64,000 bases of DNA from Nitrosovibrio sp. Nv4 (GTDB lineage Bacteria > Pseudomonadota > Gammaproteobacteria > Burkholderiales > Nitrosomonadaceae): positions 62,001 through 126,000 of the forward strand of contig CAMAPK010000001.1 in NCBI GenBank assembly GCA_945860135.1, given 5' to 3'. Positions 41,481 through 44,896 of this stretch are shown here, piece by piece. A program made the position numbers and the translations under genes. Positions within the stretch are counted from its first letter, which is position 1. Every line of letters begins with the position of its first letter. The notes beneath the pieces are model-generated. The model made no database searches. It worked only from the letters and a program-made list of their open reading frames with translations, and had not been told where the DNA came from.

Positions 41481-42599
41481 ATGATTCTAGTAACAGGCGG
41501 CGCCGGGTTCATTGGCGCAAATTTTGTGCTGGATTGGCTGACGCAATCCGACGAAGCGATTGTCAATCTCGATGCGCTCACTTACGCGGGCAATTTGCAA
41601 AATCTCGCTTCACTGGCAACAGATCCGCGACACATCTTTGTCCACGGCGACATCGCTGATTCCACCCTGGTAGCCGGCCTGCTTGCACAGCACCAGCCGC
41701 GCGCAATCATCAATTTCGCCGCCGAAAGCCATGTGGATCGCTCTATTCACGGCCCGGAAGATTTCATCCAGACCAACATCGTCGGCACCTTCCGTTTGCT
41801 GGAAGCTGTGCGCGCCTACTGGAACGGATTGAACGACGAGACAAAACAGGACTTCCGTTTCCTTCATGTCTCGACCGACGAGGTTTATGGCTCACTGGCA
41901 AAGGATGAACCGGCTTTCAGCGAAACCCGCCGCTATGAACCCAACAGTCCTTACTCGGCCAGCAAGGCTGCCAGCGATCACCTGGTGCGCGCCTATCATC
42001 ACACCTATGGCCTGCCGGCACTCACCACCAACTGCTCCAACAACTACGGCCCCTACCACTTCCCGGAAAAACTCATTCCGCTGATGATCGTCAATGCGCT
42101 CGCGGGCAAGCCGTTGCCAGTCTACGGCGACGGCCAGCAGATCCGCGACTGGCTGTATGTCAAAGACCATTGCAGCGCCATCCGTCGCGTGCTCGCAGCT
42201 GGCCGGGTAGGCGAGGTCTACAACATCGGCGGCTGCAACGAAAAACCCAATATCGAAATTGTCCATACCGTTTGTGCGCTACTGGACGAGCTCCGCCCAC
42301 TTCCCACTTCCCACTTACCACTTACCACTCCCCGTTTGCCACTCACCACTCCCCACTCTCCACTGCCCACTTACCGCTCCCTGATCACTTACGTCACCGA
42401 CCGCCCCGGCCATGACCGCCGCTACGCGATCGATGCCAGCAAGATCGAGCACGAATTGGGCTGGAAGCCGGCTGAAACCTTTGCAACCGGCATCCGCAAA
42501 ACCGTGCAGTGGTATCTGGACAACCAGATCTGGGTCAGTAATGTACAGTCGGGCGCTTACCGGACATGGGTCGAGAAGAATTACCAAGGACGCGGCTGA
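41481..42599 (+). CDS. rfbB: dTDP-glucose 4,6-dehydratase with in-frame repeat insertion
   Basis: This 372-residue extended SDR makes dTDP-4-keto-6-deoxyglucose. The motifs are [25 protein letters not shown], the catalytic STDEVYGSL and [12 protein letters not shown], and [15 protein letters not shown]. The ATG at 41481 gives the canonical N-terminus. Near residues 273-300 an extra Pro/Leu/Thr-rich stretch ([20 protein letters not shown]) is encoded by 12 heptad repeats. It sits between LLDELRP and [19 protein letters not shown], where other RmlB proteins have only a short loop. The enzyme may still fold, since the site is a surface loop and the insert preserves the frame. The stop overlaps the rfbD ATG (TGATG). 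Confidence 0.94.
42296..42379 (+). repeat. Heptad repeat array A (12 units) inside rfbB
   Basis: Twelve consecutive 7-bp units run without a gap. The first three are CCCACTT, followed by ACCACTT, ACCACTC, CCCGTTT, GCCACTC, ACCACTC, CCCACTC, TCCACTG, CCCACTT and ACCGCTC. The total, 84 bp, is four times 21, the shortest multiple of 7 that keeps the reading frame. Confidence 0.95.
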
Positions 42600-43501
42600 T
42601 GAAAATTCTGTTGTTCGGTAAGGGTGGCCAGGTAGGCTGGGAACTGCAGCGCAGTCTTGCACCTCTGGGCGAACTGATCGCGCTGGATGCTGATAGCCAG
42701 CAACCATGCGGCGACTTCACCCGTCTGGACGACATTGCCCAGAGCGTGCGCACAATTGCGCCGGATGTGATCGTCAATGCCGCTGCCTATACCGCGGTAG
42801 ACAAAGCCGAGAACGAACCGGCGCTGGCCCGCACCATCAATGCGCTGGCTCCGGGCATACTCGCACAGGAAGCGCGCAAGCTGGGCAGCTGGCTGATTCA
42901 TTACTCCACCGACTACGTGTTTGACGGCAGCGGCAGCAAGCCCTGGCTGGAAACCGACCCCACCGCACCCTTGAGTGTATACGGTTCCACCAAGCTGGCG
43001 GGCGAGGAAGCCATCCGCGCTGCAGGCTGCCACCATCTGATCTTCCGCACCAGTTGGGTTTATGCCGCACGCGGTGGCAACTTCGCCAGAACCATGCTGC
43101 GCCTGGCCCAGGAACGCGAGCGCCTGACCGTCATCGACGATCAGATCGGCGCTCCCACCGGTGCCGACCTGCTGGCGGACGTTACCGCCCACGCCATCCG
43201 CACGGCCCGGCAGCGACCAGAACTGTCCGGCCTGTACCATCTGGCTGCCGCAGGTGAAACCTCGTGGCACGGTTATGCCTGTTTTGTGCTGGATCACGCG
43301 CGTCAAGCCGGAATCGAACTCAAGGCCGCCACGGAAAATGTACTTCCGGTGCCAACCAGCGCATTTCCTTTGCCCGCCCGGCGCCCCTTGAACTCGCGCC
43401 TGGACACTGGCAAATTGCAAACCACCTTCGATTTGCACCTGCCGTTGTGGCAAACTGGCGTGGCACGCATGCTGGATGAGATTCTGGGGAGTAGTAAGTA
43501 G
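42599..43501 (+). CDS. rfbD: dTDP-4-dehydrorhamnose reductase
   Basis: The 300-residue SDR makes dTDP-L-rhamnose with NADPH. It has [33 protein letters not shown], the catalytic YGSTKLAGE and FRTSWVYAARGGNF. It begins at the TGATG overlap with rfbB. The final codons (LGSSK, TAG stop) fall inside heptad array B, so the natural 3' end of the gene was probably replaced or extended by the repeat. Confidence 0.95.
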   Translation: MKILLFGKGGQVGWELQRSLAPLGELIALDADSQQPCGDFTRLDDIAQSVRTIAPDVIVNAAAYTAVDKAENEPALARTINALAPGILAQEARKLGSWLIHYSTDYVFDGSGSKPWLETDPTAPLSVYGSTKLAGEEAIRAAGCHHLIFRTSWVYAARGGNFARTMLRLAQERERLTVIDDQIGAPTGADLLADVTAHAIRTARQRPELSGLYHLAAAGETSWHGYACFVLDHARQAGIELKAATENVLPVPTSAFPLPARRPLNSRLDTGKLQTTFDLHLPLWQTGVARMLDEILGSSK

Positions 43502-43537
43502 AAAGCAGAAAGTGGTAAGTGGGGAGTGGACAGTGAT
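43489..43537 (-). repeat. Heptad repeat array B (7 units, minus orientation)
   Basis: On the plus strand the units read GAGTAGT, AAGTAGA, AAGCAGA, AAGTGGT, AAGTGGG, GAGTGGA, CAGTGAT, which is the complement of the type in array A. It covers the last codons and stop of rfbD. Its first 11 bases are an exact inverted copy of the end of array C (43599-43609). Confidence 0.9.
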
Positions 43538-43588
43538 GAGCCGTCGGTCAACGTGCAAAGCACCGTGTACATGATCTACAGTTTCTTA

Positions 43589-43609
43589 TCTACTCACCAC
43601 TTACTACTC
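43589..43609 (+). repeat. Heptad repeat array C (3 units)
   Basis: TCTACTC, ACCACTT and ACTACTC lie just before the ribosome site (AGAAGGGGGG) of the S23 gene. With array B it can form an 11-bp stem (GAGTAGTAAGT / ACTTACTACTC) enclosing about 100 bases. Confidence 0.85.
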
Positions 43610-43625
43610 ACCAGAAGGGGGGTAA

Positions 43626-43979
43626 ATGGGTAAACCACACGAACAATTGGAAGCATGGAAATTTGCAATGCAACTGGTAAAAGCTGTATATCAAATGACG
43701 TCTGATTTCCCGGCAGAGGAACGTTATGGACTCTCGCAGCAAATGAGACGGGCAGCCGTGTCAATTCCTAGCAATATTGCCGAAGGCGCAGGCCGGAACG
43801 GTGCAAAGGAATTCCTGAACTTCATTGGAATAGCACGGGGTTCGCTGGCCGAACTTGAAACCCAATTGCAGTTAGCGGTTATGCTTGGCTTCACCACACC
43901 AGACCACGCCGCTTTCGAGCTCGCCGACCGCACCGGCAAACTCCTCACCGGCCTGCACAAGAAATGGAGCATCCAATGA
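43626..43979 (+). CDS. Four-helix-bundle protein (S23/IVP family)
   Basis: The 117-residue protein belongs to the family first seen in intervening sequences of Leptospira 23S rRNA. Markers are [18 protein letters not shown], the [12 protein letters not shown] motif after RAAVSI, and [15 protein letters not shown]. The structure is a pentameric four-helix bundle in known members and the function is unknown. A strong ribosome site (AGAAGGGGGG) precedes the ATG. It is inserted between rfbD and rfbA, genes normally adjacent, and heptad repeat arrays flank it on both sides. The stop overlaps the rfbA ATG. I infer it entered as a unit with the repeats. Confidence 0.9.
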
Positions 43980-44896
43980 CCCACTCCCCACTACCCACTT
44001 CCCACTCTCCACTCACCAGGAAAGGCATCATTCTCGCCGGCGGTTCCGGCACCCGGCTCTACCCCGTGACCAAGGCAGTCTCCAAGCAATTGCTGCCCAT
44101 CTACGACAAACCAATGATTTACTACCCCCTGAGCACCCTGATGCTGGCGGGCATACGCGACATCCTCATCATCTCCACGCCACAGGATACGCCACGTTTT
44201 GAGCAACTGCTGGGCGACGGCAGCGACTGGGGGCTTAATTTGCAATATGCCATGCAGCCCAGCCCGGACGGACTGGCCCAGGCTTTCATCATCGGCAGGG
44301 ATTTTATCGGCCATCATCCCAGTGCGCTGGTGCTGGGCGATAACATTTTTTATGGCCACGATCTGCATGTGCAGCTCGAACGCGCCATGCTTGAAACTGA
44401 AGGTGCAACAGTATTCGCTTACCATGTGCAGGATCCAGGACGTTACGGCGTGGTCGCGTTTGACGCCCAGAACCGGGCCACATCGCTGGAAGAAAAACCT
44501 TCCCAACCCAAGAGCAACTATGCCGTCACCGGCCTGTATTTCTACGATAATCAGGTCATCGATATCGCCGCCAACCTCCAGCCCTCCATCCGTGGCGAAC
44601 TGGAAATAACCGATGTCAACCGCATCTACCTGCAGCGCGATCAACTCAATGTCGAAATCATGGGGCGTGGTTATGCCTGGCTGGATACGGGCACCCACGA
44701 GAGCCTGATAGAGGCCAGCAATTTCATCGAAACCATTGAGCACCGTCAGGGTCTCAAGGTCGCCTGCCCGGAAGAGATCGCCTATCGCCGGGGTTTCATC
44801 ACTGCCGAACAGCTTGAGAAACTGGCTCAGCCTCTGGCCAAAAACGGCTACGGTCAATATCTGCTGCGCTTGCTGCAAGAAAGGATACAGTCTTGA
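43976..44896 (+). CDS. rfbA: Glucose-1-phosphate thymidylyltransferase
   Basis: The 306-residue enzyme makes dTDP-glucose, the entry to the rhamnose route. It has the nucleotide-binding motif [35 protein letters not shown] and the C-terminal [15 protein letters not shown]. Normal RfbA proteins begin with a Met a residue or two before KGIILAGG. Here 15 extra residues ([15 protein letters not shown]) precede this motif, encoded by heptad array D. The ATG at 43976 overlaps the S23 stop; an ATG at 43964 inside S23 is less likely. No ATG exists closer to KGIILAGG, so the repeat-coded peptide must be translated unless a non-ATG start is used. Confidence 0.95.
43980..44014 (+). repeat. Heptad repeat array D (5 units) at the rfbA 5' end
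   Basis: CCCACTC, CCCACTA, CCCACTT, CCCACTC and TCCACTC run directly after the S23 stop codon and inside the first codons of rfbA, followed by a degraded unit ACCAGGA. Orientation is the same as arrays A and C. Confidence 0.93.

Follow-up and report, generated by a model that had tools for sequence, protein, structure and literature searches.

We analysed a 64,000-nt stretch of Nitrosovibrio sp. Nv4 (contig CAMAPK010000001.1, positions 62,001 to 126,000; hereafter the window), in which the degenerate heptad CCACTYN forms four arrays in the rhamnose operon. A first-pass annotation of this DNA had regarded them as a repeat family that invades the operon. The four arrays are real and had been placed correctly, and those that could be tested recur in relatives; however, three of the four surround an inserted gene of the S23 family and belong to this S23 unit rather than to a free-standing repeat family. 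We consider it probable (about 0.78) that a small mobile unit with S23 as its sole gene entered the rfbD/rfbA junction, that the arrays between 43490 and 44018 form its inverted arms, and that the rfbB array and the remaining arrays of the genome are solo copies of the heptad; pairing of the arms in RNA, cleavage by RNase III and binding of the heptads by the S23 protein would complete this explanation. The unit is likely a mobile relative of the intervening sequences (IVSs) of 23S rRNA. The features of the operon are listed in Table 1.

The rhamnose operon was recovered via rfbA from six of the nine genomes of the genus (G000, which is the source genome, G001, G003, G005, G006 and G008), and its rfbB part was also recovered from G002 (L112). 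In G001, G003 and G005, rfbD is joined straight to rfbA with neither array nor S23 (empty site), and in G000 and G006 the junction consists of arm, S23 and arm. In G008, the unit is mostly lost: the end of rfbD continues into what is left of S23, its last quarter (approximately 30 residues), and the right arm follows. The S23 stop codon overlaps the rfbA ATG in G000, G006 and G008, and in G005 and G001, whose sites are empty, the rfbD stop codon does likewise. The rfbA match of G008 (G008:C12:19497-20369) contains one in-frame TAG in the assembly. A unit placed as in the window was also seen in Galbibacter (L164), a member of another phylum, where S23 with octad arms lies directly 5' of an rfbA-like gene that was recognised by eye.

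Comparison of closely related cyanobacterial plasmids that carry or lack the unit shows that the arms and the gene are inserted together at gene junctions, most clearly at the sites designated A, B, C and F. At site A, the unit is present in Trichormus variabilis and Scytonema and absent from Nostoc linckia, Tolypothrix and Nostoc carneum, at 97-98% identity; the insert is located where the upstream gene ends, at its stop codon, with (G)TAAT on both sides. At two neighbouring junctions in a single gene row, sites B and C, some Nostoc plasmids carry a unit and others are empty; the two sites are occupied in different plasmids, and the units differ in heptad. Sites D, E, F and G are further filled and empty plasmid pairs with 86-94% identity, the edges at site G (L296) being approximate. 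At site D, the insert falls within the final codons of the gene before it. The right arm at site F is part of the downstream gene's annotated 5' end, an arrangement also seen in rfbA of the window, although at F the original ATG comes after the arm. In all insertions examined, the unit is inserted at a gene junction. Moreover, related units at sites A, B and D (79-83% identical) share the arms and the gene, after which the flanks diverge, which identifies the arms as the unit's ends.

These sites bear directly on the reverse order of events, in which heptad arrays came first as landing sites and the S23 gene inserted into existing arrays. Such an order would suit the great excess of triple-heptad matches over S23 genes and the presence of arrays in relatives where no S23 was found. 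However, no array is present at the empty rfbD/rfbA junction or, among the plasmids compared, at the empty sites A, B, C and F, and because of these array-free empty sites we set the landing-site reading aside as decidedly unlikely. The shared arms at A, B and D also speak against it, as does the finding that S23 copies of one genome differ in heptad; for example, G124 has four S23 copies with four different heptads.

Heptad arms accompany S23 genes well beyond this genus. Period-7 flanks were first noticed in 29 S23 loci of a PF05635 profile search of 369 genomes of the class, which found S23 in 77 genomes (71 over the cut-off). The 97 rows over the cut-off yielded 89 loci examined as the class set, with sub-cut-off rows outside it; the set leaves out four of the seven over-cut-off G364 rows, G377:C5, the second G282 row, the second G241 piece and one of two G315 pieces that were counted as one locus. 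Periods 4 to 13 were compared in the 250-bp flanks; the controls were windows taken from these loci at a distance of 600 bp or more (0.6-2.8 kb). Period 7 scored best in 67 of 87 flanks upstream of S23 and in 65 of 85 downstream of it, compared with 28 of 268 control windows; at a score of at least 0.8, the corresponding numbers were 36 of 87, 40 of 85 and 9 of 268. A second set, covering many phyla, consisted of the best 80 of 590 confirmed named S23 loci. Here, period 7 was best in 50 of 77 upstream and 52 of 76 downstream flanks (controls: 89 of 907), and period 8 was also raised (13 of 77 and 13 of 76; controls: 63 of 907). Twelve of 29 cyanobacterial plasmid records were examined in addition; period 7 was best on both sides in nine of these loci, and period 7 or 8 was found on at least one side in all 12. 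In the window locus (L031), period 7 was best on both flanks, with scores of 0.76 and 0.86. Period-8 arrays on at least one side of S23 were observed in L163, L192, L212, L226 and L300.

Arm orientation was surveyed at 169 loci, 71 of which had both arms over the score; a detectable array measures at least about 28 bp, so four units are the least that can be detected. The arms were inverted at 62 of these 71 loci, direct at seven and unclear at two, with a median array of five units. At the window locus, inverted arm similarity was 0.64 and direct similarity 0.31. At 59 of the 71 loci, the pairing of the two arms with each other was more stable than 95% of the pairings with arms of other loci (medians: -35.4 kcal/mol for own and -11.5 kcal/mol for cross-locus pairs), and the arms of the window locus pair at -38.2 kcal/mol, every cross-locus pairing being less stable. 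The left arm of the window can pair with either the inner array or the right arm; the former pairing gives a local hairpin of -43.2 kcal/mol (z: -2.9). A stem spanning the whole unit was also considered, and its z-score of -1.1 lends no support to such a structure.

The heptads vary between S23 lineages, while both arms of one locus stay complementary. To compare heptad and protein, translations with stops or with fewer than 70 residues were dropped, which kept 144 of the 169 loci, 95 of which also had a heptad. Among these 95 loci, heptad similarity rose with S23 identity, from approximately 0.47 below 40% identity to 0.57 at 60-70% (54 pairs) and 0.76 above 70% (10 pairs). The Mantel correlation between heptad similarity and protein identity was 0.19 (0 of 500 permutations), to which the shared ancestry of flank and gene contributes.

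The heptads are also dispersed as solo arrays. The triple heptad CCACTNNCCACTNNCCACT (at most one mismatch) has 12 matches in the window, all within three of the four arrays, and none in 100 shuffles; the array at 43590-43613 has no match to it, and Tandem Repeats Finder reports this array solely with a period of 14 bp. The source genome contains 35 exact overlapping triple-heptad matches in 11 places, three of them in the window, compared with a single S23 gene, and eight of the 11 places are far from S23; likewise, G289 has 286 triple-heptad matches and two S23 rows. CCACTYN-type arrays occur in six of 41 relatives searched (own genome counted), all of one genus, which bears out the dispersed family claimed by the first-pass annotation, and the same pattern was found in 26 further genomes of the 369-genome sample. 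Two of the eight solo arrays outside the window were checked within the genus; both lack S23 and are missing at the same place in some relatives. At a position where the source genome has a solo array by a stop codon, G008 (C77:2328-2693) and G002 (C81:4354-4736) carry an unrelated insertion of about 370 bp.

Across the 369 genomes, the association between arrays and S23 was tested with triple heptads CCACTNN or TCACCNN at a threshold of at least 10 matches, counting S23 in 77 genomes, six of which have only sub-cut-off matches. S23 was found in 18 of 19 genomes over the threshold and in 59 of the 350 others (p = 1.6e-12, with genomes treated as independent). TCACCNN, which had been set up as a control pattern, behaved like CCACTNN in its association with S23.

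Plain short tandem repeats driven by slippage, such as the cyanobacterial STRR, a further heptanucleotide repeat type, might arise anywhere and be unrelated to S23. The variation in array length among relatives, the eight places far from S23 and the two checked solo arrays without S23 that are missing in some relatives would all agree with this account. In contrast, period 7 is strongly enriched beside S23 and not in windows 0.6-2.8 kb away, and for this reason slippage was set aside as the main account; in addition, the arms are inverted, the arrays associate with S23 across genomes, and no arms are present at empty sites. We therefore regard slippage unrelated to S23 as very unlikely indeed, and return to the S23 unit.

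The window S23 protein matches PF05635 with 121.5 bits (cut-off: 33.8) and TIGR02436 with 115.5 bits (cut-off: 24). The profile search found no other PF05635 match in the source genome, which is an 89% complete draft. PF05635 was the sole Pfam family matched, and the Pfam profile search revealed no transposase domain in the protein. Its relatives in the Protein Data Bank, 2gsc (XCC0516) and 2rld, have five chains each, and the accessible part of one source describes the Xanthomonas S23p as a homopentamer (PMC4990558). The S23 dN/dS was 0.06 between G000 and G006, and the three pairs tested gave 0.06, 0.10 and 0.12 overall; S23 is thus under purifying selection in these pairs.

The closest known counterpart is the 23S rRNA IVS of Coxiella burnetii. 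According to the accessible part of its description, variable-number heptameric repeats lie just before the S23 open reading frame, RNase III excision was shown in vitro, and the IVS was termed selfish and horizontally acquired, with its S23 open reading frame found decaying (PMC4990558). As far as that part allows comparison, the two elements share the same protein family, complementary ends and a similar size (428 nt in Coxiella and approximately 530 bp in the window). Unlike the Coxiella IVS, the window unit sits between the protein-coding operon genes rfbD and rfbA, outside any 23S rRNA gene, and it has heptad arms on both sides, dispersed solo arrays and an S23 gene under purifying selection.

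REP/RAYT systems, in which a gene for a Y1-type transposase is flanked by inverted copies of a short repeat and many lone copies are dispersed, offer a second comparison. The S23 gene similarly lies between inverted repeat copies, with lone copies scattered in the genome; unlike RAYT, however, S23 has no transposase domain, and its repeat is a tandem heptad array rather than a single palindrome. Avd of diversity-generating retroelements is a distant four-helix-bundle relative of S23, with a score below the cut-off (NF033474; E value: 8.7e-4; 19.6 bits against a cut-off of 80).

In the mechanism that we propose, a unit with S23 as its only gene inserts at a gene junction, here that of rfbD and rfbA. 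The two arms would then pair in the transcript, and RNase III might cut the paired arms as in the IVSs of 23S rRNA; with such pairing and cleavage, a unit in an operon or in rRNA would do little harm. The S23 ring, a pentamer in crystals, may bind its own heptads, as the pentameric crystals and the co-variation of heptad and protein lead us to propose. Candidate origins of the solo arrays are copying, decay of full units and local expansion, and decay that leaves an array was seen at site A (L340) and in G008.

Several heptad repeats have been published without an agreed explanation, namely TAACTGA in Beggiatoaceae (PMC4679880) and GGGAATC in Xanthomonas and GGGGA(C/T)T in Nostoc (PMC4692102). 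In the accessible parts of these papers, the proposed explanations are regulatory sites or G-quadruplexes. The likeness of the window arrays to known intergenic tandem repeats, pointed out by the first-pass annotation, holds: in both, seven-base tandem units, few per array, lie mostly outside genes and near stop and start codons, as far as the published accounts were accessible. Furthermore, some S23 arms carry the published heptads themselves, such as TCAGTTA in L115, the reverse complement of TAACTGA, and GGGATTC in the arm of Xanthomonas codiaei (L289), which fits the published (GGGANTN)n. The terms "S23", "23S" and "helix bundle" do not occur in the main text of PMC4679880 and PMC4692102 in the form available to us.

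Accordingly, the arrays could be regulatory elements, either binding sites of translation regulators or G-quadruplexes, with S23 as one of many neighbours. The published proposals for TAACTGA and GGGAATC and the position of the arrays near stop and start codons would fit such a role, and the heptad units of the window contain runs of GG to GGGG on the minus strand. However, runs of three G or C are missing from many of the heptads that flank S23, for example, AAAGCTA (L301), ATAATGG (L267) and TAGTTTT (L217), and the features that they have in common are period 7 and the link with S23. A regulatory role, which would be compatible with our explanation of the arms, is unlikely as the account of the arrays.

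The S23 protein family, its place in 23S IVSs and the heptad repeats of Beggiatoaceae, cyanobacteria and Xanthomonas are already known. The general link between S23 and heptads may be new: in the open-access literature, as far as its texts were available, the Coxiella case (PMC4990558) is the single precedent found, preprints and most subscription journals, in which a general link may exist, being outside this coverage. The published heptad repeats may be the trail of S23 units, which would reverse the likeness drawn by the first-pass annotation. At slightly less than even odds, we would extend this to a wider picture, in which S23 units are bacteria-wide minimal mobile elements without a recognisable transposase, the ring-forming protein recognises a lineage-specific heptad and its activity seeds arrays, the cyanobacterial, Xanthomonas and Beggiatoaceae heptads are its trail, and the 23S IVS is a special case. 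The link between S23 genes and heptads would tie together two old puzzles, the role of the S23 or "four helix bundle" genes and the origin of lineage-specific heptanucleotide repeats, and it may account for bacterial seven-base repeats that still await an agreed explanation. It also offers a simple annotation rule for S23 genes and heptad arrays, and shows that core operons, even those of cas and ribonucleotide reductase genes, can take up a mobile unit with little damage to the neighbours.

Several observations weigh against the mobile S23 unit as the source of the arrays. The tree places G003 with G000 and G006, although its site is empty and the stump occurs in the more distant G008; this distribution requires loss, recombination or lateral transfer. 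In G002, G003 and G007, arrays are present and no S23 was found, with the window S23 protein as the sole query and assemblies that are 82-93% complete; likewise, the search detected no S23 in 11 of the 27 class genomes that contain any CCACTNN match. The association test across genomes is also weakened by its treatment of genomes as independent. A short target duplication is clear only at site A, the other sites being ambiguous or too diverged. Under a strict test of the best 80 of 590 named loci, a clear array was present on either side in 28 of 73 and on both sides in 13 of 73 (controls: 21 of 768), a pass rate implying that many arms are short or worn. Moreover, among 12 S23 loci of six Xanthomonas-, Rhodanobacter- and Luteimonas-type genomes, period 7 was best on both sides in six, on one side in four and on neither in two. 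G364, a genome of 1.5 Mb, has 11 S23-like matches, and the three copies examined (L235-L237) lack arms. Finally, the seven loci with direct arms depart from the inverted pattern, the RNA fold of the whole window unit is unexceptional, and inverted arms are equally expected of a DNA element, so pairing is no proof of a role in RNA.

Table 1. Features of the rhamnose operon and the S23 unit (positions in the window)
Feature	Position	Strand	Remark
rfbB (dTDP-glucose 4,6-dehydratase), 372 aa, heptad-coded loop	41481..42599	+	loop located through alignment with 1g1a and 1bxk
Solo heptad array, 12 units, within rfbB; encodes the loop before the ITYVxDRPGHD motif	42296..42379	+	
rfbD (dTDP-4-dehydrorhamnose reductase); final codons and stop within left arm	42599..43501	+	
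Left arm of S23 unit, across rfbD stop, heptads on minus strand; core CCACTCCCCACTTACCACT at 43511-43529	43490..43536	-	
Entire inserted unit (arm, S23, arm), outer edges approximate	43490..44018	+	absent at rfbD/rfbA junction of G001, G003 and G005
Short inner heptad array upstream of S23	about 43590..43613	+	hairpin with left arm
S23 / 23S_rRNA_IVP four-helix-bundle gene, 117 aa	43626..43979	+	
rfbA (glucose-1-phosphate thymidylyltransferase), heptad-coded N-terminus; ATG overlaps S23 stop (ATGA)	43976..44896	+	
Right arm of S23 unit, 5 units, in rfbA 5' end / first codons	43980..44018	+	

The array in rfbB was found in five assemblies (G000, G006, G003, G008 and G002), and the other testable arrays also recur at orthologous sites of related genomes, with differing numbers of units. 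An assembly artefact might be suspected because the source genome is a draft of 39 contigs; its chance is negligible, since the rfbB array occupies the same site in four other assemblies, and such orthologous arrays refute it. The same architecture is also present on plasmid records described as complete.

The first-pass annotation had stated that each array changes a protein, which stands for RfbB and RfbA, both altered in frame; in RfbD, the change is confined to the last few residues. The rfbB array is absent in G001 and G005, and these two relatives also lack the peptide, so the case of shared peptides without repeat-like DNA, which would have spoken against the first-pass annotation, does not apply to them. 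RfbB has 354 residues in both genomes without the array and 358, 365, 369 and 372 in those with it; the net gain in the window is therefore 18 residues (372 vs. 354) rather than the 28 added codons reported earlier. These lengths need only a multiple of three, and the supposed requirement for an array that is a multiple of 21 is dispensed with. The heptad-coded loop precedes the ITYVxDRPGHD motif, and at this point two relatives of known structure are shorter by 16 to 20 residues. The rfbB array is a solo heptad copy in a loop of variable length, tolerated in frame. In RfbA, the extra N-terminal residues number 11 in G000, 16 in G006 and 9 in G008; the gain of 11 counts from the ATG at 43976, which overlaps the S23 stop, and the 15 residues of the first-pass annotation would apply if the ATG at 43964 were used.

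With respect to neighbouring genes, a crude longest-ORF call at 97 S23 loci placed S23 co-directional with both neighbours at 54, antisense between co-directional genes at nine, between divergent genes at 18 and between convergent genes at 16. On one cyanobacterial plasmid, the unit is antisense between nrdB and nrdA. Units were also observed in CRISPR operons of cyanobacterial plasmids (L295, L300 and L301), in the order cas6-S23-cas4 twice, with different heptads, and cas10-S23-cmr3 once. The three examined S23 copies of G364 have at least 1.2 kb of sequence in common. In L344 (1230-1600), the S23 gene is apparently interrupted by a palindromic insert beside an internal heptad array.

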